DNA of 33,197 nucleotides, from positions 1 through 33,197 of IMG/VR virus record IMGVR_UViG_3300030430_003038. The stretch is one strand, 5' to 3'. The translations under genes and the position numbers were made by a program. This DNA is from a virus. Under the pieces are notes generated by a model, which saw nothing but the letters and a program-made list of their open reading frames with translations, did not search any database and had not been told where the DNA came from. Below are positions 11,807 to 32,635 of the stretch, piece by piece (within the stretch, counting starts at the first letter, position 1; every line of letters starts with the position of its first letter).

Positions 11807-12097
11807 ATGAGCAACTTTACACCGTTTAACAGACATATCCTTGTTGATATATTAGAGGAGGATGAGCAAGAGCAAAAACATTCTTTCCTACTCCCTGAAG
11901 ACTATAAGAAACAAAAATCACCATACGTGCTATGCAAAGTCAGAGATTTTTCTTGCGACTGCAAGATAGACATTGCAACAAACATGCACATCGTGGTTCA
12001 AAGATCTATGATAGAACAAATAGAAATTGTAGATAAAACTTACTATTTAGTCTTAGAAAACTACGTTTATGGGAGTATTGAAAATGAAGTTGAATAA
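11807..12097 (+). CDS. GroES-like co-chaperonin, T4 gp31 type (tentative)
   Basis: The 96-residue protein has the size and strand order of GroES: FTPFNRHILVDIL at the start parallels the GroES opening, a polar stretch EEDEQEQKHSFLLPEDYKK at residues 17-35 sits where the mobile loop binds GroEL, and YYLVLENYVYGSI at the end parallels the GroES C-terminal strand. The glycines of the barrel are poorly kept, so the match is structural rather than clear sequence identity. Phage co-chaperonins such as gp31 help fold the capsid protein. GGAGG precedes the ATG, behind an attenuator-like terminator. Another small beta-barrel protein is the alternative. Confidence 0.5.
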   Translation: MSNFTPFNRHILVDILEEDEQEQKHSFLLPEDYKKQKSPYVLCKVRDFSCDCKIDIATNMHIVVQRSMIEQIEIVDKTYYLVLENYVYGSIENEVE

Positions 12098-12773
12098 AGA
12101 TGCGTTAAAGTCTCTTATAGTTGAGGTCCTAAAAGAAGACGAAATAATCCTCGAAGCACCTGAAGAATCTAAGTACGACAGGGTAATGGGTATACTTAGG
12201 AATGCACCGTATGGATCTGTGGCGATGATGTCCGGACAATATCCTATGGGTAAGAGTTCTGATCTTTCGCCAAAGACACTTAAACAATTTAATGCTAGAA
12301 TGAAAAAAGATTTAGAGCGAAGAATTACAGAGATGGGATTAGAGTTTGAAAGAATAGGCGGCAGCTTTGGTCCAAACATAGAGCAATCTGTGATGATCTG
12401 GGACCCAAACCAAATGGGTTCAATTTCGGAAGCAGAGCACATGCGTTTTTTGGAAAAAATAGAAATACTAAACAGAGAGCATACACAATGGGGGTTTGTT
12501 GGTGGTAAAAAAGTCACTGCCGGTCCTGAAGGAAACGCTGAATATGTGTTTACGATGTACAAGATTGATTATGACAACGAAATGGGCTTTAAACAAGATA
12601 AGGATTCAAAAACCACATCAGTAGTGCTTGGAGACGAAGACTTGCAAGACAGAGAGTCTGGCTTTTCATTTATACCTGCATCTGGCCCTGATGTCAAAAA
12701 AGGCGCACGACCAATTGGAAAAAGATTTGGCATGGACTTATACGAAAGAATGTACGAGGTGACCAATGAGTGA
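12084..12773 (+). CDS. Unrecognised protein with a candidate capsid-targeting N-terminus
   Basis: The start at 12084 has GGGAG eight bases upstream and overlaps the preceding gene by 14 bases; an in-frame ATG at 12069 is less well placed. The 229-residue product begins with an amphipathic helix, MKLNKDALKSLIVEVLKEDE, then I-L-E-A at 22-25, matching the T4 prohead-protease rule (Leu/Ile-x-Glu before Ala/Gly/Ser). The rest is a soluble mixed alpha/beta protein with no motif I recognise; it mentions neither nucleotide-binding loops nor membrane segments. It overlaps thyX. By analogy with T4 internal proteins it may be packed in the head and injected; that is inference. Confidence 0.65.
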   Translation: MKLNKDALKSLIVEVLKEDEIILEAPEESKYDRVMGILRNAPYGSVAMMSGQYPMGKSSDLSPKTLKQFNARMKKDLERRITEMGLEFERIGGSFGPNIEQSVMIWDPNQMGSISEAEHMRFLEKIEILNREHTQWGFVGGKKVTAGPEGNAEYVFTMYKIDYDNEMGFKQDKDSKTTSVVLGDEDLQDRESGFSFIPASGPDVKKGARPIGKRFGMDLYERMYEVTNE

Positions 12774-13491
12774 GGAAAGCAATAGAACTATATATCTATA
12801 CGACGATAAGATTGGCTCGGTTAGTCTTGTTGCTCACATGGGTACTGACCTTACCATCGTCAATAGTGCTCGTGTCAGCTTTGGTAATAAGAAGACTGAA
12901 CTTGATGATAAAGATAGAAGACTTATTAAGTTTCTCGTTAAGCACAAGCACACTTCAACATTTGAGCATAACGTCGTCACTTTTAAGTTTGTCGTGCCTC
13001 TTTTTGTTCGTTCTCAGCATCATCGTCACAGAACGTGGTCTTATAACGAAATATCTAGACGGTATACAGAAAAGAATATGGATTTCTACTTACCGAGCCG
13101 CTTCAGAACACAGCACAAATCCAACAGACAAGCCTCAAATCCGGAGGAACTTATAGATCCGAAAGTCTGGCCGGAAGATAGTGTCTTAGCGAAAAGCTCG
13201 ATGACCATGTCAGAGCTTCTACAAATCAGAACAAGAGACTGTCTTGGAACATATAAGGATATGATAGAAAGGGGAGTTTGTCGAGAACAGGCAAGAATGG
13301 TGCTTCCACAAAACTTATACACAGAGTATTATGGAACTTGTAACCTTTCAAACTTGCTAAAATTTATTGACCTACGATCACATGAAGGAGCACAGTGGGA
13401 AATACAAAAAGTAGCAAACGCATGCTTAGATATAGCATCAGAGCTTTGGCCAATTGCAGTTGCATCATTTAGGGAACAAAAAAATGAGTGA
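12766..13491 (+). CDS. thyX: Flavin-dependent thymidylate synthase ThyX
   Basis: It makes dTMP from dUMP using methylene-tetrahydrofolate and FAD. The ThyX signature is complete: R87-H-R-T-W-S-Y-N-E-I-S-R-R-Y100. The second conserved region appears as ERGVCREQARMVLPQNLYTEYYGTCN, with the usual Arg that binds substrate. At 241 residues it is typical of the family. The start overlaps the previous gene by eight bases and the end overlaps the next by eight. With the class II reductase and dUTPase it completes a route to dTTP. Confidence 0.95.
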   Translation: MSEESNRTIYLYDDKIGSVSLVAHMGTDLTIVNSARVSFGNKKTELDDKDRRLIKFLVKHKHTSTFEHNVVTFKFVVPLFVRSQHHRHRTWSYNEISRRYTEKNMDFYLPSRFRTQHKSNRQASNPEELIDPKVWPEDSVLAKSSMTMSELLQIRTRDCLGTYKDMIERGVCREQARMVLPQNLYTEYYGTCNLSNLLKFIDLRSHEGAQWEIQKVANACLDIASELWPIAVASFREQKNE

Positions 13492-14209
13492 TATGAAAAC
13501 AATCATGGAAAACTGGGATAGATTCTCCAAAAAATCCGATAAAGAAATCCTACGAGAAGGATTCAGAGAAATACTGATAGGTCTGTCAATTTTGGTTGGT
13601 GGAGCAGTGTATCATCAAATGAGCCAAGATGAAGAAGTTTCAATTGTTGACATACAAGATGAATATGATGCAAAAAAAGAAAAGTTTAAAAAGCTGATTG
13701 ATTATTCTTCATATGGCTTGGGTCCAAAGAGTGTAGATTCTAAAGAAAAGACCATAAGACTATTGGAAACTGATTTTAAAGACTCTTTGATTCCTGCTCC
13801 TTCGTACGAAGGGTACTCTTACGTATTTCCTACCGAGATCCCAGATAATATGATGTTGCCCATGACTCAAGTTTCTGCCGGTGACTATAGAAGCTATTGT
13901 GAACAGTACGAAATCATAGAACTAAGGGATATGTTATACGGCCCAGCAGCACGTTGGGGATACAACATAGAACCCGGAATAAGACAAGCCTTTCACACAA
14001 TAGATGGCCTTCAAGTCTTGCCACTGTCTTGGTCAATAATGTTTGATGTTTTTCAAAGTAAAACATTTGATGCTATAGAGGATTTCAACAATGCAGTTAA
14101 TAACCCTGATGAGCTTGAAAAGGTTGCCACGGTATTTGGCTTTGACGACGCTCAACATCTTGAAACAGAGTTACAACAATTAAAACTTATGATACAATAT
14201 GAGGACTAA
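13484..14209 (+). CDS. Candidate capsid-targeted internal protein with a hydrophobic segment
   Basis: ATG at 13484 overlaps the thyX end. The 241-residue product begins MSDMKTIMENWDRF, very like the T4 capsid-targeting sequence MKTYQEFIAE, and then has L23-R-E25 followed by Gly26, a good prohead-protease site. A hydrophobic stretch, ILIGLSILVGGAVY at about 30-43, directly follows. If cleaved, this would be the new N-terminus, possibly membrane-active after injection. The remainder is acidic and rich in aromatic residues, without a recognised enzyme motif. Two neighbours (12084 and 14682) have the same N-terminal design. Confidence 0.65.
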   Translation: MSDMKTIMENWDRFSKKSDKEILREGFREILIGLSILVGGAVYHQMSQDEEVSIVDIQDEYDAKKEKFKKLIDYSSYGLGPKSVDSKEKTIRLLETDFKDSLIPAPSYEGYSYVFPTEIPDNMMLPMTQVSAGDYRSYCEQYEIIELRDMLYGPAARWGYNIEPGIRQAFHTIDGLQVLPLSWSIMFDVFQSKTFDAIEDFNNAVNNPDELEKVATVFGFDDAQHLETELQQLKLMIQYED

Positions 14210-14213
14210 TAAA

Positions 14214-14357
14214 ATGAAAAAAATAATATATTATGCGGCTTGTTTTGCAATTGGATATTCATGTAGTTATTTACTAGAGAGCAAGGAAGAACAACAGATA
14301 ACACCAAACTTTGATGCTCGATTGATCGAAGTGCTAAGTGAGTATGAAGAAAATTGA
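14214..14357 (+). CDS. Small membrane-anchored or lipid-anchored protein, 47 residues
   Basis: The ATG lies four bases after the previous stop; only a weak GAGG is upstream. The product begins MKKIIYYAACFAIGYSCSYLL, basic then hydrophobic, with Cys at 10 and 17 that could serve as lipid anchors, followed by an acidic polar tail. A simple membrane anchor is as likely as a lipoprotein. The family is not recognised. Confidence 0.45.
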   Translation: MKKIIYYAACFAIGYSCSYLLESKEEQQITPNFDARLIEVLSEYEEN

Positions 14358-14445
14358 TTATAAACATATGGAGGTTGATGCTTTTGTGCATCTTGTGGCT
14401 TCTTGCGAAAGCAGGAGGTTTGCACGTGAAAAGGCCACCTCTTGA
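14344..14445 (+). CDS. Possible very small protein, 33 residues
   Basis: An ATG at 14344 opens a frame to TGA at 14443-14445 that covers the short space between its neighbours, overlapping the previous gene by 14 bases and the next by 20. It has a mixed charged sequence with one Cys. No good ribosome site precedes it, and the GAGG of the alternative ATG at 14378 lies inside it. It could be an accident of frame. Confidence 0.25.
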   Translation: MKKIDYKHMEVDAFVHLVASCESRRFAREKATS

Positions 14446-14698
14446 TGAAGCAAAATTTGCTGTCGGTGATCTAGTTAAAGTCAACAACTTTGGCTTGCTG
14501 CTAGTAGAATCAGGATCTGATCTAGGACTTGTTATGGATGGTCCTTATATTTTTAAAACCACAACACACTCACATACGATAGATGACTTATTCTATTTTG
14601 AGTACTGGACTTATGATATTTTTGTAGACGGAAAGCTAATTAAAATGATGCCTGAAACATTTTTAGAAGAGGTAAAAACAGATGAAAAAGATGCTTAA
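14426..14698 (+). CDS. Small GDLV-type beta-barrel protein, 90 residues
   Basis: I choose GTG at 14426 because AGGAGG ends seven bases upstream and the protein then begins close to AKFAVGDLVKVNNFG, matching its relatives. An ATG at 14378, with GGAGG three bases ahead, would add a short hydrophobic leader. After the GDLV strand come LLLVESG, LGLVMDGPYIF and YDIFVDGKLIKM, an alternation of short strands suggesting an SH3/KOW-like barrel. At least five other proteins in this window share the pattern. Function unknown; such barrels often bind nucleic acid or ribosomes. Confidence 0.55.
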   Translation: MKRPPLDEAKFAVGDLVKVNNFGLLLVESGSDLGLVMDGPYIFKTTTHSHTIDDLFYFEYWTYDIFVDGKLIKMMPETFLEEVKTDEKDA

Positions 14699-15623
14699 TG
14701 AATGGAAGCAATACCTGAGAGAATCATTAAACCTTTCAGAAAAAGATCTTGAACATCGGCGGATGATGATCGCAGAAAGGTTGTTTCAAACAATCCAAAA
14801 ACCTTCCAGACAAAGAGCAGCATTTAAGCAAGAGCTTCCTTTTTTGTACTACCTTTACAAGGGTGTTGAGCCAAAAGTAAATAAAGCCGGTAAGACAATC
14901 GGATACAGCATTGGTAACGACCAGAACGTCGATGCAGTAATGGAAGAAATAAAAAAGAGAGCAAAAGCATTCGTTGTGTCTTTAGACCCACCAGAAGATA
15001 AGATATTTGCCGCTGATGCCTTGATGATTGGATACTACATGCACATGAACAAACGACGCGATGCAATGGGATTATCCAGCGCTTATGGTGTAGCATCACC
15101 CGGACAGTTTGATACAGTTATGTTCGGTAAATCCCGTAGAGAAGTATTTCAACCATTTAAAAAAGACCTTGATTTTATGTTAAAGAACTCACCAGAGTTA
15201 GCAAACATACCGGAAGAAGATAAATCTTTATTTGAGATTGAAACGATAATTGGTGAGATACTGAAGATGCTACCGAGAGATCCAAGCTTTCAGATACCCC
15301 AGCTTACAGAAGATCAATTTAAAGCAAATTATCTTGAAGGCATGCCACTACAAACTTGGCAAAAAGTTCAAGACCAAATTGTCGATGACCCAACTCCAGA
15401 TCAACAGATAGGAGAGGCTTTGTTAAACTCAATGAATATGATGATTCAGAACTTACAAGCGATTCAATCTGGTAATATCACTGGTGAAGAAGCTATGGAA
15501 GATAAAAGAAACGTCAAGACTGCTCTTATGAGTCAAACCTTCATGACGCCTGCTGTAATGGAGCATCCTAAATACAAAGAACTAATCGGTCTAGCCGGAT
15601 TGGTGGGTGTGTGGAACTCCTAA
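14682..15623 (+). CDS. Candidate capsid-targeted internal protein, 313 residues
   Basis: The N-terminus MKKMLNEWKQYLRES holds L12-R-E14 followed by Ser15, fitting the prohead-protease rule and preceded by the short helix seen in T4 capsid-targeting sequences. The body is largely helical, with LPFLYYLYKG, FAADALMIGYYMHM and long amphipathic helices to the end, and no enzyme motif I can name. The start overlaps the GDLV gene by 17 bases. An internal Met at 14691 is an alternative start. It ends 13 bases inside the next gene. A virion-packaged role is inferred only from the N-terminus and its neighbours. Confidence 0.6.
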   Translation: MKKMLNEWKQYLRESLNLSEKDLEHRRMMIAERLFQTIQKPSRQRAAFKQELPFLYYLYKGVEPKVNKAGKTIGYSIGNDQNVDAVMEEIKKRAKAFVVSLDPPEDKIFAADALMIGYYMHMNKRRDAMGLSSAYGVASPGQFDTVMFGKSRREVFQPFKKDLDFMLKNSPELANIPEEDKSLFEIETIIGEILKMLPRDPSFQIPQLTEDQFKANYLEGMPLQTWQKVQDQIVDDPTPDQQIGEALLNSMNMMIQNLQAIQSGNITGEEAMEDKRNVKTALMSQTFMTPAVMEHPKYKELIGLAGLVGVWNS

Positions 15624-16426
15624 ATTTTGACAAGGTTGTTGTTGGAGGATCACTCACTGCATTGCTTTATGCGTACAAGCACAACCTGCCTATAATCATA
15701 GATCAAGCACATATTCCCTTTGCATTGGATGAGTGTCCAAAACACTGGGATTTTAGTTTTATTGGATTTTCTTCCAAATTGACACATAAAAAGAGTCAAA
15801 TATGGGATAGACTAGTATTCCTACTCTCAATGGCTGGTATGGTGATTTTTCCTAACAATATACAAAGTTTTAGACAAGAAGAGGGCGTTTTGTCTATTAT
15901 AATGAACAATAACCAGAGGTTTAAAATCTCGTACAACGAAATTGTTGAGTTTGATAGAGATAAGAATGAGGCGATGATCGTGTATGATTGGTTTGCTGTT
16001 CGTTCCGGTGCTAGACATGACCATGAGCTGATCAAAATACCAGACACAAACTTTGTTCATACTTTGATGTTTCATCCGTCCACAAGAGCCAAGACTAGAA
16101 ATGATGTCAAGGACGTTTGCGCAGTATCGGAAATACCAGAGTCCGAAATCAATGATCTAGAGTGGTCGGAGTCGTATGTTCGTATGAGAGTATTGCAGCT
16201 TATGAAGCAGCAAGGAATCAGAGGCCAATCTAACGGATATAATAAAAAAGGCCTACAGTTACACTATGCAATAAAGATTGAACACATGTATCGTGAGACG
16301 AGATACAAATATGACAACAGCATACAAATATCAGATCTACTAAAACTCAAATTAAATCAGGACAGTGACTTATGGAAATTAACGACAAACCTTTTAAGGG
16401 GCATGGCTTCCACCTTGCTGGAATAA
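15611..16426 (+). CDS. Protein with an N-terminal dinucleotide-binding-like motif
   Basis: The start is GTG at 15611, overlapping the previous gene by 13 bases. The N-terminus reads FDKVVVGGSLTALLYAYKHNLPIIID, a strand-glycine loop-helix-strand as in FAD- or NAD-binding Rossmann folds, though the GxGxxG glycines are only partly present. The rest (271 residues in all) is not recognised: it has LVFLLSMAGMVIFP near 70, a charged middle and a helical C-terminus. It overlaps the nucleotidyltransferase-like gene by 55 bases, so the two are probably made together and may share a pathway. I cannot name the substrate. Confidence 0.5.
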   Translation: MELLNFDKVVVGGSLTALLYAYKHNLPIIIDQAHIPFALDECPKHWDFSFIGFSSKLTHKKSQIWDRLVFLLSMAGMVIFPNNIQSFRQEEGVLSIIMNNNQRFKISYNEIVEFDRDKNEAMIVYDWFAVRSGARHDHELIKIPDTNFVHTLMFHPSTRAKTRNDVKDVCAVSEIPESEINDLEWSESYVRMRVLQLMKQQGIRGQSNGYNKKGLQLHYAIKIEHMYRETRYKYDNSIQISDLLKLKLNQDSDLWKLTTNLLRGMASTLLE

Positions 16427-17277
16427 TACCTTGCGCAGGTCAACCCCTCGATTACGGAATGGAGTGGCCCGACTTTATGATGCCAGTTGCTCCGAACTAC
16501 ACCATGTTAGAGGCGGCAATACTTGAGTGTGCGTATGCTGGGTGCGATACGATCTGGCTGTGCATGCACCATGAGACTGCTAGGTTTGTTAGACAACGCA
16601 TAGGAGACTTCGTTCAAGATCCTGTGTGGATCCATCGTAAACACGAAGCGTTCCCATCAGAACACAAGATCAGAATACCAATTTACTATGTGCCTGTGCA
16701 TCCTAAAGACAGAGATAGAAGAGATTGTCTGAGCTGGTCTGTAATATACGGTGCCCTAAACGCTTTCAAGGTTTCCGCCAATATATCTAAGTGGTTGATA
16801 CCTGATAAGTACTATGTTTCATTCCCGTATGGTATATACAACCCAATGGTATTGCGAGAGTACAGAAGAAAGATATCGTCGGCCCAAAACTTTTATGTAA
16901 CTCACAACGGACTATCCCCAGAGGACAACTTGCCAATATCATTTACCTTTGGTAAGAACGAGTTTGTAAGATTTCGTAGAGAGATTAGAAAAGGGACAGG
17001 AGAGTTCATAAACGAGGTTGAGGAGGGTAAGCTCGCCCCAACTAAAAGACTACCACTGGAAGAAAGATACTCAGCCCGTTGGTTTGACATCAAAGATGTA
17101 TTTACGGACCTAGACATCAATGAACACAACTCAGTAAATATAGATGAGTTTTACGATTTGAGATCTTGGGATCAATATAAAAACTATTTATCTTCTGGAC
17201 TGTCCAACTTCATCAAGCGACCAAAACACATGAAATATTCAGAATTTCACAGAATTGGGCTTGACATTTCCAAATAA
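16372..17277 (+). CDS. Nucleotidyltransferase-like protein (GT-A fold, tentative)
   Basis: The N-terminal pattern AGIIPCAGQPL...FMMPVAPNYTMLEAAILECAYAGCDTIWL resembles sugar-nucleotide transferases of the NTP_transferase family: strand, glycine loop, a ProVal before the start of a helix, then an Ala-Gly-Cys turn. The usual Arg/Lys residues of the signature are not clearly in place. At 301 residues it is of ordinary size. A charged middle and the YSARWFDIKDVFTDLD segment follow. It overlaps the preceding gene by 55 bases. A role in sugar or nucleotide activation for DNA or lipopolysaccharide modification is possible. The last codons contain the next promoter. Confidence 0.5.
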   Translation: MEINDKPFKGHGFHLAGIIPCAGQPLDYGMEWPDFMMPVAPNYTMLEAAILECAYAGCDTIWLCMHHETARFVRQRIGDFVQDPVWIHRKHEAFPSEHKIRIPIYYVPVHPKDRDRRDCLSWSVIYGALNAFKVSANISKWLIPDKYYVSFPYGIYNPMVLREYRRKISSAQNFYVTHNGLSPEDNLPISFTFGKNEFVRFRREIRKGTGEFINEVEEGKLAPTKRLPLEERYSARWFDIKDVFTDLDINEHNSVNIDEFYDLRSWDQYKNYLSSGLSNFIKRPKHMKYSEFHRIGLDISK

Positions 17278-17289
17278 GTGTGTTATAAT
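17261..17289 (+). promoter_or_regulatory. Strong sigma-70-type promoter overlapping the next gene's first ATG
   Basis: TTGACA at 17261-17266 inside the end of the nucleotidyltransferase-like gene, 17-bp spacer, TATAAT at 17284-17289 preceded by TGT. The ATG at 17288 lies within the -10 box, so transcripts from here begin after it. Confidence 0.8.
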
Positions 17290-17902
17290 GTCTTATAAGA
17301 TAAATCTTAGAAAATATCAAAAACTGCTAAAAGAGGTGAACTATCTTAGGTCTGAATTGGAATATCAAAATGAGGTGCTTAAATCAGCACACCATGAATT
17401 TGAATCATATTATAGAGAATGGTGTGCAAATAATGATATTGACATTGATACACTAAATAAAAAACATAGCCAATCTATCACCACGCTTATGCCAAAAACT
17501 AAGACACAAGTGCATGACGAAAATGATGCGATCATACCTATAAAAGATATTGAAATCAAAAGAAAAGCAAATAAATTTTCAAAGATATACAGAACACTAG
17601 CCAGAGAGCTACACCCAGACAAGGAGCAAGGAAATGAAGAAAAGTTTAGTAGAATATCTGATGCGTATAGTAATGGAGAGTGGTCAGTCCTGCTCGACGC
17701 AGCATCTGATCTTGGCATCCTCCCGGACAATTTCAAGGATATATTTCCCCTCATGAGGGAAGAAGCTGACAATCTTAGAAAAAAGATAGCAGTAAACGAA
17801 TCTACTTATAGTTGGTTGTTGTTTGAATGTGAAGGTAATCACAAATGCAAAGAAAGGATTGTAAAAAAGTTTTTAAAACATTTATTTAAATTGGAGTTAT
17901 AA
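17288..17902 (+). CDS. J-domain (DnaJ-like) protein with an N-terminal coiled coil
   Basis: An HPD motif at 109-111 lies in FSKIYRTLARELHPDKEQGN followed by FSRISDAYSNGEW, the helix II-loop-helix III pattern of J-domains, which stimulate Hsp70 ATPase. Residues 1-50 are predicted coiled coil. The C-terminus is helical and has two Cys. No Hsp70 gene is visible, so it would act on the host DnaK. The start is uncertain: ATG 17288 lies in the -10 of the promoter and has no ribosome site. If that promoter is used, translation would begin later, for example at an internal GTG or TTG, without touching the J-domain. It ends one base into the next gene. Confidence 0.7.
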   Translation: MSYKINLRKYQKLLKEVNYLRSELEYQNEVLKSAHHEFESYYREWCANNDIDIDTLNKKHSQSITTLMPKTKTQVHDENDAIIPIKDIEIKRKANKFSKIYRTLARELHPDKEQGNEEKFSRISDAYSNGEWSVLLDAASDLGILPDNFKDIFPLMREEADNLRKKIAVNESTYSWLLFECEGNHKCKERIVKKFLKHLFKLEL

Positions 17903-18774
17903 TGTTACTATTAATGTTACTAGCATGTCGCCAAGGAGACATAGGAATTGTTAAGGTCTACGAAAACCAAAGAGACTCAGCAGTACAAGACACACAGGTC
18001 GTACCCACAGAACCATCTGAACCAGCATCTGAGCCAGAAAGAACCGGGATTACAGGGTACACTAGCTTACACCTTAGACAGGTTGCGTGCCCGGCTTGTG
18101 TTGGAGAACCTCAAGAGATTAAAATTACCTTTTCAGCAGAGTTTCACCAACCGATATCAGACAATCACACGAGCTGGATACCAACGAGTGATCAATGTAC
18201 AACAAATCTCATAAGCATGAGCCCCTCAACAAACCCAATCAATGTAGGACCCAGCATTGTTATTGACTCTGGTGTTCATAATTTTGGAGCAGAGCAAGTA
18301 GCCACCGGACTTTATGAGACCACTAGCATATGGGAATCTCAACTGCAAAGGGACGCTGTCTATACTGTTGAGTCCCAAGAGGGAAGTTATGATTTTGTAT
18401 CTTCTCATGGGTTCGACTTCATTGAGCCATATAATATGTTGTGGGTTGATCCATCATATGCTTTCGAGGCACCAATATACAGATCAGGTGCCACGTTCAC
18501 TTGGGCACCAACTAGTACAGACTCTACGTTCATGATAACGGTTGCAGTTTATTCTTGGGACGGCAGTCAGTTTTTGGGCTACGTTACATGCTCAGGCCCT
18601 GATAATGGAATGATGACAATCCCAGCTCAATATCTACAGGCATATCAAGCAGGTTCTCTTGTTGCAATCCACCTAGAAAGACACAAAGTAAGTCTGGTTG
18701 AGACAGATATAAATAATTCATATATCGAAACGCATATGAGCTGGGAAGTCGTTGGTACGGGGACTATTTATTAA
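17902..18774 (+). CDS. Predicted lipoprotein, 290 residues
   Basis: Begins MLLLMLLACRQ, a very short signal with an excellent lipobox (LLA-Cys9) but no basic residue. A low-complexity linker rich in Glu, Pro, Ser and Thr follows (about residues 27-50), then a beta-rich domain with paired Cys near residues 65-70 (CPAC) and many aromatic residues, ending WEVVGTGTIY. GGAG lies just upstream. Once anchored it would be periplasmic or surface-exposed. Its style resembles host-derived bacterial lipoproteins. Phage lipoproteins can block receptors or DNA entry, but no direct evidence supports that here. The domain is not recognised. Confidence 0.65.
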   Translation: MLLLMLLACRQGDIGIVKVYENQRDSAVQDTQVVPTEPSEPASEPERTGITGYTSLHLRQVACPACVGEPQEIKITFSAEFHQPISDNHTSWIPTSDQCTTNLISMSPSTNPINVGPSIVIDSGVHNFGAEQVATGLYETTSIWESQLQRDAVYTVESQEGSYDFVSSHGFDFIEPYNMLWVDPSYAFEAPIYRSGATFTWAPTSTDSTFMITVAVYSWDGSQFLGYVTCSGPDNGMMTIPAQYLQAYQAGSLVAIHLERHKVSLVETDINNSYIETHMSWEVVGTGTIY

Positions 18775-22282: not shown

Positions 22283-23176
22283 ATGGTTGAATTACACTGT
22301 CACCTTGACGGTTCACTGCGATTCAGCACATTGCAAAAACTCGCAGTCCGTCAAGGCTTACCTGCGCCCATTCCAAGAGAAGTTGGTTTTCACAAAGGCA
22401 TGAGCTTACAAACAGCCCTGAGCAAATTCAGACTAACCCTGTCAGTTTTGCAACAACCTAAAGCCGTTACAAGAGTTACTCGTGAAATATGTGAAGATGC
22501 TGAGGCAACAGGGGTACACAGCTTAGAAATAAGATTTGCACCCCAGCTTCACAGCGGAGCCTCTATAGACAGAATAGTCGATGCTGCGATTGACGGATTA
22601 GATTGGAATGCAAATCTGATCCTTTGCGGTCTCTACGGAGAACCACCAGAGATATTAAGCAACCTTGTTGATATTGCTAAGACAAGACCAAGAGTCGTTG
22701 GTATAGATCTGGCCGGTGGTCCACTTCCAACTCATAAGTGGAGTTTGTTTGACTACGTCCAGCCCTTCAGCGAAGCTAAGCGTTATGGCATAGGTCGCAC
22801 TGTTCATGCTGCTGAGGGCAGATCTCCAAAAGAGATTGAGGTGGCAATAAACTTTCTTCACGCTCAGAGGATTGGACATGGAACAACAATACTTGAAGAT
22901 CAGAGGGTTGTTGACCTCGTTAGAGAAAAGAACGTGGTTCTAGAAGCGTGCATAACTTCCAACGTTCATACTGGCGTTATTGATAGTTTTGGCGCACATC
23001 CCATCAAAGAGTGGATAGAACAAGATATACCCGTTTCGATCTGTGCTGATAATACGCTTATGTCTAATACTGATCTATCAATCGAGATCATGAACACAAA
23101 GTACTTGTGTGGTCTCACTGACGAACACTTACAAAAAACTTATGACTGGGGTTTTCAAGGTCTATTTAGGAGGTAA
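22283..23176 (+). CDS. add: Adenosine deaminase family enzyme
   Basis: It hydrolyses the amino group of adenosine or a related adenine compound, giving inosine. All family motifs are present: metal-binding HCHLDGSLR at 5-13, AGG loop near 148, TVHAAE near 172 with its metal His and catalytic Glu, RIGHGT near 196, and ADNTLMSNTDLS near 253 with the metal-binding Asp. In the last motif the usual Asp-Asp-Pro is Asp-Asn-Thr, like the Asp-Asn form seen in actinobacterial enzymes. At 297 residues it is slightly shorter than bacterial Add (333). It could salvage purines from degraded host nucleic acid. GGAGG lies eight bases upstream. Confidence 0.85.
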   Translation: MVELHCHLDGSLRFSTLQKLAVRQGLPAPIPREVGFHKGMSLQTALSKFRLTLSVLQQPKAVTRVTREICEDAEATGVHSLEIRFAPQLHSGASIDRIVDAAIDGLDWNANLILCGLYGEPPEILSNLVDIAKTRPRVVGIDLAGGPLPTHKWSLFDYVQPFSEAKRYGIGRTVHAAEGRSPKEIEVAINFLHAQRIGHGTTILEDQRVVDLVREKNVVLEACITSNVHTGVIDSFGAHPIKEWIEQDIPVSICADNTLMSNTDLSIEIMNTKYLCGLTDEHLQKTYDWGFQGLFRR

Positions 23177-25779: not shown

Positions 25780-25785
25780 AAAATG

Positions 25786-25816
25786 ATAAACCCCCTTGAC
25801 AAACAAGGGGGTTTAT
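25786..25816 (+). terminator. Perfect hairpin with a promoter -35 at its apex
   Basis: ATAAACCCCCTTG (25786-25798) and CAAGGGGGTTTAT (25804-25816) are a perfect 13-bp inverted repeat with loop ACAAA. It directly follows the ATPase stop and should end that transcript, although only three T follow the G run. The TTGACA of the next promoter spans the stem end and loop. Confidence 0.7.
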
Positions 25817-25824
25817 GTTATATT
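25796..25824 (+). promoter_or_regulatory. Promoter for the HNH gene, fused with the hairpin
   Basis: TTGACA at 25796-25801, 17-bp spacer, TATATT at 25819-25824 preceded by TGT. The -35 and most of the spacer lie within the hairpin of 25786-25816, so one stretch of DNA can end one transcript and begin the next. Confidence 0.8.
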
Positions 25825-25849
25825 ATTAATATCAAAAAAGGAGATAACT

Positions 25850-26407
25850 ATGAATAAAAGAACAATAACAGAACACTTAAAACAAATAAATCAGAATGCA
25901 AAGGCCAACAGTAATAACGTTGATTCTTTGGCCTACAGGTTGTCCAACAAGGGTAATGAAAGATACGGTAGATATTTCAAAAAAGCCGGATACCCAATCT
26001 GTGGTGGAAGACTTGACATTATCAAAGAGTTTGTTGAAATGATCTTTGAAACACAGGACAACCACTGTAGCATGTATGTGCCTACAAAAGAAGGACAGAT
26101 TGGAACTCACTGGAATCGTCCGGGTAAAGCATGGTATCAAGATCAACTAAAGTATGAGATTGATCATGTAGAACCTACAAACGCCGGTGGAAAAGATTCA
26201 TTAGAAAACATACAGTTTTTGTCACCAAATGCAAACCAGTTTCTTAAGAACTCATTAACATGTGATCTATTCTTTAGATGCGTGCATATATCAGATGTGA
26301 CAAAACAAAGATTCAAACAGGTTTTAGTAAACAGAGAGAAGCTTTTCAAATCAAAAAAATGGAAAGATTTCATACATAAATGCGAGGTAATTGAAGGTCG
26401 AGCATAA
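25850..26407 (+). CDS. HNH-type endonuclease
   Basis: ATG 25850 has AGGAG seven bases upstream; an in-frame start at 25796 lies in the promoter and is rejected. The 185-residue product has an HNH core: EIDHVEPTNAGGKDSLENIQ followed by FLSPNANQF, giving the Asp-His pair, the Asn and the later His/Asn positions of the beta-beta-alpha metal fold. CGGRLDI upstream may contribute. Such proteins cut DNA, as homing enzymes, restriction enzymes or repair nucleases. It is not inside a recognisable intron. Its position right after the GHKL ATPase suggests a partnership, but it has its own promoter. Confidence 0.75.
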   Translation: MNKRTITEHLKQINQNAKANSNNVDSLAYRLSNKGNERYGRYFKKAGYPICGGRLDIIKEFVEMIFETQDNHCSMYVPTKEGQIGTHWNRPGKAWYQDQLKYEIDHVEPTNAGGKDSLENIQFLSPNANQFLKNSLTCDLFFRCVHISDVTKQRFKQVLVNREKLFKSKKWKDFIHKCEVIEGRA

Positions 26408-26412
26408 ATTTA

Positions 26413-26440
26413 AAAAACCCCTTGACAACAAGGGGTTTTT
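26413..26440 (+). terminator. Second perfect hairpin with a promoter -35 at its apex
   Basis: AAAAACCCCTTG (26413-26424) and CAAGGGGTTTTT (26429-26440) form a perfect 12-bp inverted repeat with loop ACAA and end in five T. It follows the HNH gene by six bases. TTGACA of the DnaE promoter spans the apex. Confidence 0.8.
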
Positions 26441-26450
26441 ATGTTATAGT
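26422..26450 (+). promoter_or_regulatory. Promoter for the DnaE gene, fused with the hairpin
   Basis: TTGACA at 26422-26427, 17-bp spacer, TATAGT at 26445-26450 preceded by TGT. The ATG at 26473 follows with GGAGG. The design is the same as at 25796. Confidence 0.85.
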
Positions 26451-26472
26451 ATAAATACAAATCGGAGGAAAA

Positions 26473-29400
26473 ATGAAATCAGGATACGTAGTATTAAATA
26501 TCAAGCCATTGCATAGCAACTATGATGGCATCGTCAAGAAACAAGGCGAAACAATCGCAACTTTTCCTGTCAAACATCTGGACAAGCTTGGCTTCCCAGA
26601 GAGAGACATAGAGGAAATCACAACTGATTGGCAAATAAACGCACACAGACATAGAGATGGCTGTTTTGAATATACGATAAGTGCCAAATCAACCAGAGAA
26701 CCAACACCAGAAGACCTTACTCGCACTGTTGAGGTTATACAAGAGGTTATCGAATGTAACAAGCCAGTGCAGAGAAGTGAAAGTACGCTTAGGTTTGTAA
26801 ACCTACATGCTCACAGTGGTGTTGGCTCGCCATTTGATGGGTTCGGATATCCGCAGGAGCACATGGACTTTGCATATAACAATGGCTGTGAAGCACTTGC
26901 ATTGACCGATCATGGCAACATGAACGGCTTTGCTTATCAAGTCCTGCATGCTAGAAAGATGAAAGCAGCAGGCAAGAAGTTCAAGCCCATATTCGGAGTT
27001 GAGGCTTACTTCATCCCATCAGTTGATGAGTGGAAGGTCAAGATCGAAGAATATCGACAGGATAAAAAGAAAGCTAAACAAATTGATGCTGGTCGCTCCG
27101 GCACAAACATCGAAGCAGATGGTGAGTCTAAAGGTATGTCTAAGTCTGACATTAACAGAACTCGCCACATGGTTCTCATTGCTATGAATCAAACAGGACT
27201 CAACAACATCTTCAAGATGGTTTCAGAGTCTTACAACGGAGATTATTTCTATCGCAAGCCACGCGTTGATTACGACCTTTTGTCTAAGTACAACGAGGGT
27301 GTGATCGCTATGTCTGCTTGTCTTGGTGGTGTCTATGCTGGATGCTACTGGCAGGAAAGAGAGAACGGTGATGAGGCTGTGATGGAATGTATGCGAGAAC
27401 AAACTCGCAAGATGCAAGCGATCTTCGGTGATCGTTGGTATGGCGAGCTCCAGTGGAACGCCGTGCCTGAACAACACGAACTCAACCAATATATTATTCG
27501 TATTGCGAAAGAATTCGATCTCAAGCTTGTGTCAACCGCCGACTCTCACTATCCAAACCCTGATGCTTGGAAAGACAGAGAGTTATACAAGCGACTTGGT
27601 TGGATTGGCAAGGGAAAGCCTGAATGGCTGGACATGAACATTCCAACTGACGTTCAAGAGATGGAGTATGAACTATACCCTAAGAACGGATTTCAAATGT
27701 GGGATGCCTACTGTGAGTATTCTGAAGCATGCGATCAAGAGTATGACGATGCTTTGATTGAGCAGTCCATTGAGGAGTCATATCACATTGCCATGGAGCG
27801 ATGCGAGGACTTCTTACCGGACACCACAGTTCGGCTCCCTGACTTTGTTGTACCGGCAGGGTACGAGGAAGACTCCTATCTTGAGCGTCTTGCATCAGCC
27901 GGTTTGTTCTCTATCCTCAAGGAGCAGGGACTAACACAGAAGCGAACCAAGTCTAAGTCGTTGATCTATGAATACGAACAGAGACTACAACACGAGCTCA
28001 AGGTAATCGCAGATCGTGGTTTCTCAAAATACTTTCTAACTATGAAAGCAATATCGGATAAAACAAATGAAGTACAACTCTCAGGGCCCGGTCGAGGATC
28101 TGCGGCAGGTTCTCTTGTTGCTTATGCTCTTGGCATTACTCAAATCGATCCAATTAAGTATGGACTTTTGTTCTCTCGTTTCCTTAGATCAGATGCGACT
28201 GATTACCCTGATATTGATTATGATGTATCCGATCCTATGGTTCTTAAAGATATTCTGATCGACCAGTGGGGCGACTCAACGGTTGTGCCTATTTCTAACT
28301 GGAATACGCTTCAGCTTCGCTCGCTGCTCAAAGATATCTCTAAGTTCTATGATATACCTTTCCAAGAGGTCAACTCTGTTACAGGCAAGATGTTAGCGGA
28401 AGCAACACCCATAGCAAAAAAGAAGCATGGTATCAAGGCTGGTGTGTATACTCCGACCTTTGAAGAAGTTGTTGAGTTCTCAGAGACACTACAGGACTTC
28501 TTCAAAAAATATCCTCATGTCAAGACTCACGTCGAGGCACTTCACGGATCTTACAGGTCATGCTCTAGACACGCCGGTGGAGTTGTAATCGGTGAACAAT
28601 TAGACAAGTTTATGCCTTTGATCTCTTCCAAAGGGGTAAGACAAACCCCTTGGTCCGAAGGTCAAAATGTTCGTCAATTAGAGCCTATGGGGTTTATTAA
28701 GTTTGATATTCTTGGGTTGTCCACGTTGCGAATGATTGAGGACTGTATAGGTAAAATCCTACAAAGACACCATGACATCGATAAGCCAAGCTTTGAAGAT
28801 GTAAAGAGCTTCTACGATGAGAACCTACATCCTGACAAGATTGATTTAAATAATCAAGCCGTATACAAACACATATTCAATGAAGGTAAGTGGGTTGGCA
28901 TCTTTCAGTTCACCGAGAGTGGAGCACAGACCTTTGCCCAACAGGTAAAGCCCAAGTCTATTATCGATCTTGCCGCTATCACATCAATCTATCGTCCCGG
29001 TCCTTTATCTGCTGGTGTAGACAGAGACTATGTCGATGCATCCAATGACCCGATTAACATTAAGTATCTTCATCCGATAGTTGAAGAAGTTACATCAGAG
29101 ACCTATGGGTTCCTTATTTTCCAAGAACAGATCGCCATGTTGGCCTATCGTCTTGGCGATGGTATCACAATGGATGAGGCCAACTTGCTTCGTAAGATCT
29201 TAACTAAGAAAGGAACTGGTAAGGGTCACGAGGTAAAAGATGCGCTGTATGATAAGTTTGTTAAAGGCTGCATCGAGAAGGGTATCAAAGAGCACGAAGC
29301 AAGAAAGCTTTGGCAAACGTTTGAGTATTTCTCTGGCTATGGGTTCAACAAGTCCCACGCTGTTTCCTACTCGGTGATATCCTATCAGTGTGCTTGGTTG

Positions 29401-30234
29401 TGTCACAACTATCCCGTTGAGTGGATGGCTTCGTTCTTAGACAAGGAACCAGAGTCTCGCAAAGAAAAGGCTATCAACCTTGCCAAGCAGCATGGATATG
29501 AGATCAAACCCTTGAACATAAATTATTCCGAGGACACTTGGAAGATACAGGACAACACAACCTTAGTTGCTCCTCTAACAACTATCAAGGGTTTAGGAAC
29601 GTCAGCCTATGAGCAGATCATTATGCATCGTCCATTCAACACAGCGGAAGAAATGTTATTCCATCCAGATGTAAAGTACAACAAGCTTAACAAAAAGGCT
29701 TTCGATGTGTTGTGTCGTGCTGGTGCGATGAATGATCTGATTGATGAGAGGTTCACTGGAGACAAGCACTTTTGGTCTGCTGTCTGTCTAGATAAACCTA
29801 GGACTAAAAAGAAACTCGATGAGAACATTGAAACCTACAGACCAGAGGGATCGTTCAGCGAAGAAGAAAAGATTGAATTCATAGCAGATCTCACAGGTAT
29901 ATTCCCAATGTCCATGGTTATCTCGTCCGATGTTCAAAGGCGACTAGATGAAAAGTGCTTACCACCAATATCTGAGTATGATAGAGACTTGCAACTATGT
30001 TGGTGTATTCCGAGATCTGTAACTAAAAAGAAAACAAGAACTGGTAAAACATTCTATGTAATTAAGGTTATTGATTCGAACTCAATCGAAACACAGATTC
30101 GTTGTTGGGGTGTAAACTCAAACAAGGACAAGGTACATATCAACAGACCGTACCTTCTGAAGCCTAGATACGATGAAACTTGGGGCTTCTCAACCTACGG
30201 TAACGTTGACAACTGCTGGGCTTTGCTCGGCTAA
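26473..30234 (+). CDS. dnaE: DNA polymerase III alpha subunit (family C, DnaE-like)
   Basis: A complete replicase of 1253 residues. Residues 1-105 are an N-terminal extension I do not recognise. The PHP domain follows: HAHS at 112-115, LTDHGNMNG, GVEAYF, SACLGG and STADSHYP, so the metal-binding residues for PHP proofreading appear intact. The polymerase core has GPGRGSAAGSLVAYALGIT near 538, YPDIDYD near 578-584 with the catalytic Asp pair, RHAGGVVI, and FDILGL near 744-749 with the third Asp. The helix-hairpin-helix (TIKGLG) and a C-terminal OB-like domain follow. No clamp, clamp loader or DnaQ lies in the window, so it may borrow host factors. It is likely the main replicase beside the compact PolA. 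Confidence 0.95.
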   Translation: MKSGYVVLNIKPLHSNYDGIVKKQGETIATFPVKHLDKLGFPERDIEEITTDWQINAHRHRDGCFEYTISAKSTREPTPEDLTRTVEVIQEVIECNKPVQRSESTLRFVNLHAHSGVGSPFDGFGYPQEHMDFAYNNGCEALALTDHGNMNGFAYQVLHARKMKAAGKKFKPIFGVEAYFIPSVDEWKVKIEEYRQDKKKAKQIDAGRSGTNIEADGESKGMSKSDINRTRHMVLIAMNQTGLNNIFKMVSESYNGDYFYRKPRVDYDLLSKYNEGVIAMSACLGGVYAGCYWQERENGDEAVMECMREQTRKMQAIFGDRWYGELQWNAVPEQHELNQYIIRIAKEFDLKLVSTADSHYPNPDAWKDRELYKRLGWIGKGKPEWLDMNIPTDVQEMEYELYPKNGFQMWDAYCEYSEACDQEYDDALIEQSIEESYHIAMERCEDFLPDTTVRLPDFVVPAGYEEDSYLERLASAGLFSILKEQGLTQKRTKSKSLIYEYEQRLQHELKVIADRGFSKYFLTMKAISDKTNEVQLSGPGRGSAAGSLVAYALGITQIDPIKYGLLFSRFLRSDATDYPDIDYDVSDPMVLKDILIDQWGDSTVVPISNWNTLQLRSLLKDISKFYDIPFQEVNSVTGKMLAEATPIAKKKHGIKAGVYTPTFEEVVEFSETLQDFFKKYPHVKTHVEALHGSYRSCSRHAGGVVIGEQLDKFMPLISSKGVRQTPWSEGQNVRQLEPMGFIKFDILGLSTLRMIEDCIGKILQRHHDIDKPSFEDVKSFYDENLHPDKIDLNNQAVYKHIFNEGKWVGIFQFTESGAQTFAQQVKPKSIIDLAAITSIYRPGPLSAGVDRDYVDASNDPINIKYLHPIVEEVTSETYGFLIFQEQIAMLAYRLGDGITMDEANLLRKILTKKGTGKGHEVKDALYDKFVKGCIEKGIKEHEARKLWQTFEYFSGYGFNKSHAVSYSVISYQCAWLCHNYPVEWMASFLDKEPESRKEKAINLAKQHGYEIKPLNINYSEDTWKIQDNTTLVAPLTTIKGLGTSAYEQIIMHRPFNTAEEMLFHPDVKYNKLNKKAFDVLCRAGAMNDLIDERFTGDKHFWSAVCLDKPRTKKKLDENIETYRPEGSFSEEEKIEFIADLTGIFPMSMVISSDVQRRLDEKCLPPISEYDRDLQLCWCIPRSVTKKKTRTGKTFYVIKVIDSNSIETQIRCWGVNSNKDKVHINRPYLLKPRYDETWGFSTYGNVDNCWALLG

Positions 30235-30261
30235 ACATTTATTAACAACAAGGAGTATTAT

Positions 30262-30507
30262 ATGAATGTAACAAATGAAAAACAAGAGGACACACCTCTA
30301 TTGACACAAGGCGACCTAGCCATAGCAGCGTATTCGATATCAGAAGTGTTCAACTCATATCTTGAGCGATATGAAGAAGAGGACTATGGCGAGCTTACGA
30401 AAGAACAGATGGAAGCATCCATGAATAATTTAAGGCTAGCATTTACCAAGTTTGACTCACTAATTAAAACGATTGTCGAGCGAGAACAAATCAATGAAGG
30501 TGGGTGA
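30262..30507 (+). CDS. Small acidic helical protein, 81 residues
   Basis: AAGGAG lies eight bases before the ATG. The product is acidic, mainly helical (residues 15-75), with Glu/Asp-rich runs such as YEEEDYGELTKEQ and no Cys. I do not recognise the family. It overlaps the next GDLV gene by 14 bases and shares its transcript with DnaE. Confidence 0.5.
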   Translation: MNVTNEKQEDTPLLTQGDLAIAAYSISEVFNSYLERYEEEDYGELTKEQMEASMNNLRLAFTKFDSLIKTIVEREQINEGG

Positions 30508-30670
30508 TTTGGTGCGTATAGTCGGATATCCCGGATACTTCACAAATAATATGGTTGGACTGGTAACGGCTATTATACCTTTGAAGCATGGAAACCAAGT
30601 GCAGTTTCTATTACAAGGTAAATATATTATAATGCACGAGTCAGACTTGGAGGTGTTACGTGAAGTTTGA
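30494..30670 (+). CDS. Small GDLV-type beta-barrel protein, 58 residues
   Basis: ATG 30494 puts MKVGDLVRIVGYPGYF at the N-terminus, the cleanest form of the group; a TTG at 30473 would add seven residues. Strands NMVGLVTAIIPL and VQFLLQGKYIIM and a closing ESDLEVL follow, as in an SH3/KOW barrel. It lies inside the end of the preceding gene, so translation is coupled. The next family member overlaps its end by 11 bases. Confidence 0.6.
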   Translation: MKVGDLVRIVGYPGYFTNNMVGLVTAIIPLKHGNQVQFLLQGKYIIMHESDLEVLREV

Positions 30671-30905
30671 TATAGGAGATCTTGTATCTTACAATAACAT
30701 AGCACCGGAACAACAATTAGGTAGTTTCTTTCTAGGTTCAAAACCCCACATTGTTGATAACGGTATAGGAGTTGTGTTAGAACAACAAGGAAGCATGCAG
30801 TCATACGACGGCAGATACAAAGTCCACTGGCCCAAGTTGGGTGTTACAAAGTGGCACGAATCTTACGAATTAAAAAAGGAGAAAACAAATGAAAGTGAAG
30901 ATTAA
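30660..30905 (+). CDS. GDLV-type beta-barrel protein, 81 residues
   Basis: GTG start at 30660 with GGAGG seven bases upstream. It begins MKFDIGDLVSYNNI, then GIGVVLEQQG, YKVHWPKLGVTKW and a charged, Lys/Glu-rich end. Adjacent and overlapping family members at 30494 and 30660 look like a tandem duplication that has diverged strongly. It overlaps the dUTPase gene by 17 bases; AAAAGGAG in its tail is that gene's ribosome site. Confidence 0.6.
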   Translation: MKFDIGDLVSYNNIAPEQQLGSFFLGSKPHIVDNGIGVVLEQQGSMQSYDGRYKVHWPKLGVTKWHESYELKKEKTNESED

Positions 30906-31305
30906 AAAGCTTAGCCCTGATGCTAAGGTACCAAGATATGCAAAGCCCGGCGATGCTTGTATGGATCTCTATGCTGTAAGTCACACAATAGACCAATATG
31001 GCAATCAAGTATATGACACGCAGATAGCTATGGAGATTCCTAAAGGATATGTTGGTCTTATTTTTCCAAGATCATCCGTATCCAAAACGGGCTTGTCTCT
31101 TAGAAACTCAGTTGGAGTCATCGACTCTGGATACAGAGGTCCGATAATGCTAAAGTTCAGTGGTGAAGCTGGGAGCTACTTGGCCGGAGACAGAGTAGGA
31201 CAAATAATGATCCTACCTTACCCAGAGATAGAATATGTCGAGGTTAATCAATTGTCAGATTCGGAACGAGGCTCTGGTGGTTTCGGATCAACAGGAACTA
31301 ATTAA
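30889..31305 (+). CDS. dut: Trimeric dUTPase
   Basis: It hydrolyses dUTP to dUMP and pyrophosphate, feeding ThyX and keeping uracil out of DNA. The five family motifs are present: AKPGDACMDLYA, FPRSSVSKTGLSL near 65, the NSVGVIDSGYRGPI stretch with the catalytic Asp near 84, GDRVGQIMIL near 104, and the C-terminal P-loop-like RGSGGFGSTG. At 138 residues it is typical. AGGAG precedes the ATG. It ends three bases before the RHH-like gene. Confidence 0.95.
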   Translation: MKVKIKKLSPDAKVPRYAKPGDACMDLYAVSHTIDQYGNQVYDTQIAMEIPKGYVGLIFPRSSVSKTGLSLRNSVGVIDSGYRGPIMLKFSGEAGSYLAGDRVGQIMILPYPEIEYVEVNQLSDSERGSGGFGSTGTN

Positions 31306-31308
31306 ATT

Positions 31309-31632
31309 ATGTCTGAGTCAATTAAGAAAAAGGTTCAATTTGTCGACACTGACGTAAGACATGCTCAGTTAAAAATTAAGCTAGAAAGAGAGTCAATCTC
31401 ACAAGCTGAGTTCTTCAGAGCATGTCTTACGGGCATGATCGATGAAGATCCTGATTTTTTAAGATACGTCAGAAAATACAAAGACAATAAAAACATAGGT
31501 AGAAAAAGAGACGCCAAGATATTAAACAAAGAGGATAAAGCCAGCGATGATCTTATGCAAAGGTTCGGAATCAAAGACACAGAATTAGATAATATTTTCG
31601 ATTTAATTGCAGAAGAACATCCAGATTTATAA
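31309..31632 (+). CDS. Ribbon-helix-helix-like protein (tentative), 107 residues
   Basis: Residues 12-40, reading VDTDVRHAQLKIKLERESIS followed by QAEFFRACLTGMI, fit a strand then two helices as in MetJ/Arc DNA-binding proteins. A charged, Lys-rich middle and an acidic helical end follow. It may repress phage genes through sites such as the palindromes in the promoter spacers; that link is speculation. No clear ribosome site lies before the ATG, so coupling with the dUTPase gene is likely. Confidence 0.5.
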   Translation: MSESIKKKVQFVDTDVRHAQLKIKLERESISQAEFFRACLTGMIDEDPDFLRYVRKYKDNKNIGRKRDAKILNKEDKASDDLMQRFGIKDTELDNIFDLIAEEHPDL

Positions 31633-31641
31633 ACTTTTTAC

Positions 31642-31670
31642 TTTCTTGGTTCTATTTATTGTGTTATAAC
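31642..31670 (+). promoter_or_regulatory. Weak promoter candidate before the scaffold-like gene
   Basis: TATAAC at 31665-31670 preceded by TGT matches the set's extended -10, but the -35 (TTTCTT, 17 bp upstream) is poor. It may be activated or used late. GGAG and the start codon follow. Confidence 0.4.
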
Positions 31671-31689
31671 ATTTTAAGGAGATTATATA

Positions 31690-32310
31690 ATGTCTAAAAA
31701 ACTTTTATCAGAGGCTCAAATTCGCCGCTTCCAAAGCCTCGCTAGTATCACACCTCTTCAGGAGATGTACAACGAAGAAGAGCACAACGAAATGATGCAC
31801 AAGGAAAAAATGCACAATGAGATGGGTCACAACGAAATGATGCAAAGCAAAATGGAAGGTGAATACAACGAAGGTGAATACAACGAAGGTGAATACAAAG
31901 AGGAGATGCACGAGCAGGAAGAAGATCCAATGGCTGATGAAGAAGGTATGGATGATGCTGGTGACTCTGATGTAGAACTTGACGAAGAATTGGTAGAGAG
32001 ATTTATGGATGCTGCTAAGGCCGTACAAGAAATGGCTGATGCTCTTGGTGGAGCAGCTGGTGGCGATATGGATATGGGTGACGAGGAACCTATGGATGAC
32101 ATGGGTGGTGACGAACCAGAAGCAGCAGCTGAACCCGAAGGAGAAGAAGGGGGTGAAGGTGAAGAAGAACTTTTAGAACTCGCTCTTGAAGGTATCCAGT
32201 ACCAAGCATCACAAAAGGAAATTGTTGACGAGGTTGCTAAGCGAGTTGCAAGACGAATCATGGAAGCTAAAAAAGCACATGCCAAGATGAATAAAGCATT
32301 GGGGAAGTAA
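31690..32310 (+). CDS. Acidic scaffold/prohead-core-like protein with His/Met-rich repeats
   Basis: The 206-residue protein begins MSKKLLSEAQ, where L6-S-E8 before Ala9 matches the prohead-protease rule. Residues 28-78 hold degenerate repeats of HNEM and EYNEG, giving a Met/His-rich then acidic stretch. A very acidic middle rich in Glu, Asp, Gly and Ala follows, with AELVERFMDAAKAVQEM-type helices, and a basic C-terminal helix VDEVAKRVARRIMEAKKAHAKM. This acidic layout with a basic helix at the end recalls T4 scaffold and core proteins (gp22, gp67, gp68) rather than an enzyme. GGAG precedes the ATG. It ends one base before the next gene. Confidence 0.55.
   Translation: MSKKLLSEAQIRRFQSLASITPLQEMYNEEEHNEMMHKEKMHNEMGHNEMMQSKMEGEYNEGEYNEGEYKEEMHEQEEDPMADEEGMDDAGDSDVELDEELVERFMDAAKAVQEMADALGGAAGGDMDMGDEEPMDDMGGDEPEAAAEPEGEEGGEGEEELLELALEGIQYQASQKEIVDEVAKRVARRIMEAKKAHAKMNKALGK
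31861..31905 (+). repeat. Three 15-bp in-frame repeats
   Basis: The unit GAATACAACGAAGGT appears twice exactly (31861-31875 and 31876-31890) and once diverged (31891-31905), coding EYNEG, EYNEG and EYKEE. The length of this tract may vary among relatives by slippage. Confidence 0.85.
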
Positions 32311-32311
32311 A

Positions 32312-32635
32312 ATGAAACTTACTAGAGAATCCTTAATTAGAATTATCAAGGAAGAAATGGATTCAATGCCCGGACCCAGAGGTGTATATGCATCAGAGCA
32401 AAGTTTTTCCAGCGCGCCTCAAGCAGATCTTCCTAGACAGGATTTAGATGCTATAGCCGGACAGGCCATACAGCTTATGAAAGATGGTGAAGGTTTTGGT
32501 CGAGCTCTCCAAATGGCAGTTTACAACAAGACAGGAAGAGAAGATCAGCCAACCGAAAACGCTGTTGCAAATCATATAGCAGAGATGTATGATGGAAGTA
32601 TCATGAACTTTTTCATGGCCATGAGAAATAACTAA
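32312..32635 (+). CDS. Candidate capsid-associated protein, 107 residues
   Basis: It begins MKLTRESLIRIIKEEMDS, an amphipathic helix with I12-K-E14 and then Glu15, close to the prohead-protease rule though Glu at the position after the cut is unusual. The rest has a proline-rich segment, then helices rich in Met and Ala (AIQLMKDGEGFGRALQMAVY, IMNFFMAMRNN). No ribosome site other than the preceding gene's end is evident, so the two are coupled. It probably joins the same particle or assembly step as the scaffold-like protein; that is inference. Confidence 0.5.
   Translation: MKLTRESLIRIIKEEMDSMPGPRGVYASEQSFSSAPQADLPRQDLDAIAGQAIQLMKDGEGFGRALQMAVYNKTGREDQPTENAVANHIAEMYDGSIMNFFMAMRNN

Follow-up and report, generated by a model that had tools for sequence, protein, structure and literature searches.

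The stretch analysed is the IMG/VR virus record IMGVR_UViG_3300030430_003038, all 33,197 bases of which are referred to here as the window. It carries T4-like replication genes (UvsX-like recombinase, DnaB-like helicase, DnaE-type and PolA-type polymerases, ribonucleotide reductase, ThyX and dUTPase) together with five genes, designated by the position of their first base as 12084, 13484, 14682, 31690 and 32312, whose products were flagged in a preliminary description as bearing capsid-targeting N-termini like those of the T4 internal proteins. These N-termini, and the leader families to which four of them belong, are the subject of this report. All five open reading frames (ORFs), each with an [L/I]-x-E site near its start, were confirmed in the sequence, with sites at I22-L-E24/A (12084), L23-R-E25/G (13484), L12-R-E14/S (14682), L6-S-E8/A (31690) and I12-K-E14/E (32312).

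Two leader families and one fixed N-terminus

The bare L/I-x-E site was rejected as evidence for a leader because the motif is too common, being present within the first 27 residues of 17 of the 47 window genes compared with 11.5 expected from shuffles; a T4 stretch gave 22 of 72 (15.3 expected). Position-specific models of two leader classes, trained on other contigs, were applied with a match threshold of 10 bits to the 1,671 ORFs of eight fetched sequences and the window, with expectations taken from shuffles. This returned 49 class A matches (0.00 expected) and 55 class B matches (0.10 expected). Class A has the consensus MKITKxxLxxIIKEE and includes 12084 and 32312, class B has the consensus MKLLLENWRKYLNE and includes 13484 and 14682, and no other gene of the window scores close to these four on the models. 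A chance origin of the four N-termini, as short amphipathic helices with a site that is common on its own, is ruled out by the model scores, which part matches from shuffles by tens of bits; a codon-permuted class A DNA pattern also had no match in the viral collection, whereas the degenerate class A and class B patterns each matched at least 120 stretches there, and we give chance negligible probability.

The preliminary description had envisaged a single set of T4-like leaders on all five proteins. By the model scores a leader is present on four of them, divided between two families instead of one, and a leader common to all five was rejected, as 31690 matches neither class. The 31690 family has 12 members among the fetched sequences (including G001, G003, G005, G022, G025, G035, G038 and G042), with a fixed start, LL[S/N]E-xx-[I/V]R[R/K][F/W]xxLAxI, an acidic middle and no mobile leader, and 31690 may be a prohead core protein.

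An additional in-frame ATG precedes 12084 at 12069, and its leader holds earlier L/I-x-E sites at residues 12-14 and 16-18, while for 13484 the inner ATG at 13493 may be the start of the leader proper (MKTIMENWDRF). The ThyX gene, flanked by leader genes 12084 and 13484, carries no leader (Table 1).

Table 1 Leaders, bodies and adjoining features of the window
Feature	Position	Strand	Evidence and remarks
Class A leader of 12084 (MKLNKDALKSLIVEVLKEDEIILE)	12084..12155	+	15.2 bits, class A model; possible cut after E24 (ILE/A)
Body of 12084, putatively S-adenosylmethionine (SAM)-lyase-like / DUF3293-like	12156..12773	+	Fold search; Pfam matches of family members
ThyX-type thymidylate synthase	12766..13491	+	phrog_85, E=3.6e-65
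Class B leader of 13484 (MSD-MKTIMENWDRFSKKSDKEILRE; inner ATG 13493)	13484..13558	+	23.3 bits, class B model; W-x-x-F pair; possible cut after E25 (LRE/G)
Body of 13484: hydrophobic stretch and domain whose relatives bear class A or class B leaders	13559..14209	+	Eight-member family with leader swap
Class B leader of 14682 (MKKMLNEWKQYLRE)	14682..14723	+	17.7 bits, class B model; predicted cut after E14 (LRE/S)
Body of 14682	14724..15623	+	Homologue in G001 only, 69% identical; no Pfam match
Conserved acidic protein 31690, fixed start LLSEAQIRRFQSLASI	31690..32310	+	12-member family among fetched sequences
Class A leader of 32312 (MKLTRESLIRIIKEE)	32312..32353	+	29.6 bits, class A model; possible cut after E14 (IKE/E)
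Body of 32312	32354..32635	+	Single-member family

Neither leader was present in 581 kb of random viral sequence (three contigs), in 99 kb of T4 or in 40 kb from a Flavobacterium phage, and the leader strings searched for occurred in no paper of the open library. In GTDB genomes the class A pattern occurred in nine stretches only, all on contigs of metagenome-assembled genomes (MAGs). The MAG contig NHDW01000006.1 (L529-L544, 306 kb, binned as Methylococcaceae) encodes 31 leader proteins, each with a distinct body, and 26 of these proteins fall within 40 kb; an S77 protease of the same MAG lies on a contig of equal length. NHDW01000006.1 is probably a giant T4-like phage placed in the wrong bin, in which tandem leader genes form an island.

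Leaders shared by unrelated bodies and swapped on related ones

At least 964 leader proteins were fetched (502 class A and 462 class B), with 411 distinct bodies behind class A leaders and 283 behind class B leaders, about 690 altogether, which bears out the earlier proposal that unrelated bodies stand behind similar leaders. Large contigs carry 7-31 leader genes each. Alignment of 98 class B proteins showed conservation at leader residues K2, E6, W8 and E14 only, and the 14682 leader recurs, identical at 14 of 14 residues, before an unrelated protein of contig G002 (100 kb), which encodes many more leader proteins and a gp21-like protease. With its DNA polymerase as the query, the only relative found for the window was G001, and in the G001 homologue of 13484 the leader stretch MKTIMENWDRFSK is identical at 13 of 13 residues, at a full-length protein identity of 45%. 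In the predicted structure of 12084, a leader helix (residues 5-18) is followed by a low-confidence linker (19-26) holding the predicted cut, and then by the body.

Short leaders common to unrelated bodies were thus found by the models, by clustering of the bodies and by alignment, and also by swaps, in which a class A leader in one phage and a class B leader in another precede related bodies. Swaps were seen in four strict families and in the two window families of 12084 and 13484. Within the 12084 family, the members from the window, G001 and L166 bear class A leaders, and those from G005 and G022 class B leaders. In the 13484 family the leaders are of class B type in the window, G001 and G042, and of class A type in G038, L035, L100 and L093; for G042, L035 and L100 they fall short of the model threshold and were read by eye. 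Because two unrelated peptides replace each other on related bodies, they most likely serve the same job.

The shared first codons might also reflect a DNA- or RNA-level signal at the gene start, acting in translation or recombination. Some codons are biased beyond body usage (class B E6 is GAA in 96% versus 68%), which fits copying of leaders between genes, but the bias is only partial and most conserved positions vary synonymously (class A L8 is encoded by CTT, TTA, CTA and CTC). With amino-acid determinants that match those of T4, and two unrelated leaders that interchange, a codon-level signal was rejected as the explanation and is considered very improbable.

Leader proteins of both classes form a 66-member cluster in which the conserved C-terminal stretch DACYHKVKxRYxVWPSAYASGALVKCRKVGAANWG recurs (L435:10293-10562, L018:2359-3159, L141:790-1896 and others).

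Candidate cut sites, prohead protease and proposed packaging

In T4, ten residues suffice for packaging of internal proteins, with residues 4 and 7 determining targeting and 8 and 10 processing, and gp21 cuts after L/I-x-E (PMC9026906). The leader of T4 internal protein IPIII reads Y4xxF7-I8-x-E10 and class B reads W8xx[Y/F]11-[L/I]12-x-E14, with identical spacing. Among class B sequences selected on residues 1-9 only and taken from loci that the class B pattern had not fetched, 62% contain the full motif [FWY]8xx[FWY]11[LIV]12xE14, and none contains it at other positions. Class A leaders are aliphatic where T4 is aromatic, and have an [L/I]xE peak at residues 20-22 (28% versus a 1% baseline) in addition to the I12-x-E14 of their core. 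An L/I-x-E at or just after the leader is therefore positioned in both classes, and all four window leaders have one, 32312 being without the 20-22 site. The T4 determinants, aromatic residues at 4 and 7 beside 8 and 10, are complete in 14682, and 13484 has the aromatic pair with a later site.

The closeness to the T4 leader noted in the preliminary description accordingly extends to determinants and spacing in class B, including the W-x-x-F pair of 13484, and not to sequence, as T4 stretches score at most 2.4 bits on the models and the 13484 cut (ILRE/G) lies later. Homology to the T4 leader is not supported by these scores, and the leaders are described as working, by analogy, like the T4 leader and not as its homologues.

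Known T4 cuts, located from reviews and read from the T4 record, are LTE65/A in gp23, LRE10/S in gp24 and LIE9/T in gp21; the predicted 14682 cut has the same residues, LRE/S, as that of gp24. In all nine capsid proteins found in leader phages, positions 58-62 hold LL[R/Q/K]E or VLRE, and LLRE and LLTE are conserved near the start of most gp21 homologues. These data bear on whether the leaders address another phage machine, such as a replication compartment, a phage-modified RNA polymerase, a chaperone or a membrane, with L-x-E incidental. Several of the bodies are enzymes that might also act late in the cell, and the class A I12-x-E14 belongs to the helix core; however, the position of L/I-x-E is fixed and the site equals the capsid-protein cut in the same phages, class B has four T4 determinants at T4 spacing, and some leader genes lie within the gp21 operon, making such an address quite unlikely.

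The genome-wide scan for the leader and a prohead protease advocated in the preliminary description recovered the four window leaders by the models and matches of at least 10 bits in other contigs, while no head gene and no S77 protease was recognised in the 33,197 bases of the window. Among leader contigs, an S77 protease was found in 32 of 50 large contigs and in 22 of the 24 of at least 130 kb, compared with 1 of 27 random contigs. Six leader contigs without the protease look like fragments missing the head module, because gp23 is missing from them as well. At 13 of 33 loci, gp21 has leader genes no more than 1.5 kb away; this enrichment, about twofold over genome density in a biased sample, was dropped as proof.

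Adjacency to gp21, where the T4 core genes 67 and 68 sit, and the shortness of many class A bodies would suit a role of the leader proteins as parts of the prohead core or scaffold that are cut and leave the head, and are not injected effectors. The diversity of the bodies (about 690 distinct ones, up to 31 in one contig, many of them with enzyme domains) is unlike a scaffold, and 32312 is missing in the close relative G001, so we regard this role as unlikely.

Read together with the observed leader families, their unrelated and swapped bodies, the positioned sites, the co-occurrence with gp21 and the conserved capsid-protein cut, the N-termini of 12084, 13484, 14682 and 32312 are probably capsid-targeting leaders that would be cut by gp21 and load proteins for injection. 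During head assembly the leader would attach each protein to the prohead core; the T4 gp21-type protease would then cut after the Glu of [L/I]-x-E at or just past the leader, freeing the body, which would remain in the head and enter the host with the DNA. The aliphatic family A and the aromatic, closely T4-like family B would do one job and be exchanged among bodies, so that a phage could make many different proteins packaged ones.

Several points weigh against packaging and injection. The full motif is absent from 38% of class B and from many class A leaders, and T4's own leader does not score on the leader models. The length-matched S77 comparison is small, with few control contigs (p=0.011 at 130 kb or more), and no late promoter TATAAATA was found upstream of leader genes. 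Neither the window nor G001 has head genes, both being fragments, and gp21 in the window's own phage is presumed. Finally, searches of cultured phages, made with short queries of limited sensitivity, gave neither the leaders nor a near match; the roles of the bodies are likewise presumptive.

Downstream of gp21 at most gp21 loci (for example L461:2032-2670 and L465:2576-3217) lies a conserved protein starting MKKSELKKxIKPLVKECIxE, and at the same loci a small basic protein with a resemblance, judged by eye, to ribosomal protein S21. As a candidate member of class A, the head-operon protein MKKSELKKxIKPLVKEC fails the ungapped model (about -50 bits); that a two-residue shift would align it with class A is a lead.

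Proposed cargo bodies and the SAM-lyase candidate

Searches of the bodies against Pfam and PHROG gave protein kinases (7 of 98), NUDIX proteins, zeta-toxin-like and other P-loop kinases, nucleotidyltransferases, a deoxyribonucleotidase, an exonuclease, GNAT, L,D-transpeptidase and sigma-70 region 2 domains, while the majority of bodies had no match. In the window, fold search with the 13484 body gave no match, and gene order placed no homologue of the 32312 body at the corresponding place in G001.

For the 12084 body, the top fold matches were the phage SAM lyases 6zm9 and 6znb (Foldseek probability 0.99-1.00, E about 1e-3, with low TM-scores and a mean pLDDT of 59). Family members above the cut-off matched PF23780 (L412, 4.9e-13; L233 and L423, 1e-7), as does T3 SAMase, or DUF3293. 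The window protein itself matched no Pfam family, the PF23780 profile included, and had no significant sequence match; a sequence-profile search of the PDB gave nothing convincing, and T3 SAMase was not matched as a relative by hhalign. The structure model is a low-confidence one; in alignment, E100 falls at T3 E67/E68, within one column of E68. Our best guess is that the 12084 body is a SAM lyase or a relative of one, which could blunt restriction from DNA entry onward; this identity is a lead and not an assignment to the family. Phage SAM lyases such as T3 SAMase and Svi3-3 are the nearest known counterparts of this body, but T3 SAMase is made early in infection (PMC7877911), whereas the 12084 family carries packaging-type leaders. 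If these act as proposed, a packaged SAM-lyase-like protein would work ahead of any phage gene expression.

The arrangement resembles T4, in which IPI-IPIII and the Alt propeptide likewise set a short N-terminal leader with an L/I-x-E site on otherwise unrelated, non-essential proteins, and class B shares with the T4 leader the aromatic-x-x-aromatic-[L/I]-x-E core at the same spacing; a gp21-type S77 protease accompanies the leaders in most large leader contigs. It differs from T4 in leader sequence, in having two families, one of them aliphatic where T4 is aromatic, and in scale, with 7-31 leader genes per large contig and hundreds of bodies compared with three internal proteins plus Alt. In phiKZ-like giant phages (SPN3US, 201phi2-1), several packaged proteins also have N-terminal propeptides cut after Glu by a gp21-like protease (PMC5694885, PMC9026906), but those of SPN3US are mostly longer than 100 residues with S/A-x-E type sites, compared with 14-25 residues and L/I-x-E here. 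Finding internal proteins by their leader is established practice in T4 (PMC12373910).

On balance, it seems reasonably likely that a widespread group of uncultured, largely marine T4-like phages run an open cargo system in which two unrelated, interchangeable leaders load into the head of each phage some 7-31 different host-directed proteins (SAM-lyase-like proteins, protein kinases, zeta-toxin-like kinases, nucleotide hydrolases and a sigma-factor domain), so that takeover and anti-restriction would start with injected proteins. Injected proteins are usually learned phage by phage through virion mass spectrometry; if the leaders are head addresses, a model of 15-22 residues would read the predicted injected set directly from metagenomes, as for the at least 964 leader proteins here, and two new tags would become available for loading phage heads with proteins.

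A G002 relative of 13484 (L006:4945-6474) has a long N-terminal extension with a weak ADP-ribosyltransferase match (PF01129, E=0.044), reminiscent of T4 Alt. The Flavobacterium phage that is closest in gp21 encodes a deoxyribonucleotidase (L485:5122-5721) with class B leaders on its relatives; the protein begins with MKKVMGNLADLLLEESDFMPKYQIYCDMDG (2.8 bits), which may be a diverged leader containing an LLLE site. Elsewhere in the window, positions 22283-23176 encode an adenosine deaminase-family protein (PF00962, E=8e-56), unusual in phage and conserved in G001, and a PolA-type polymerase portion (661-1848) and a full DnaE-type polymerase (26473-30234) are present in one phage.

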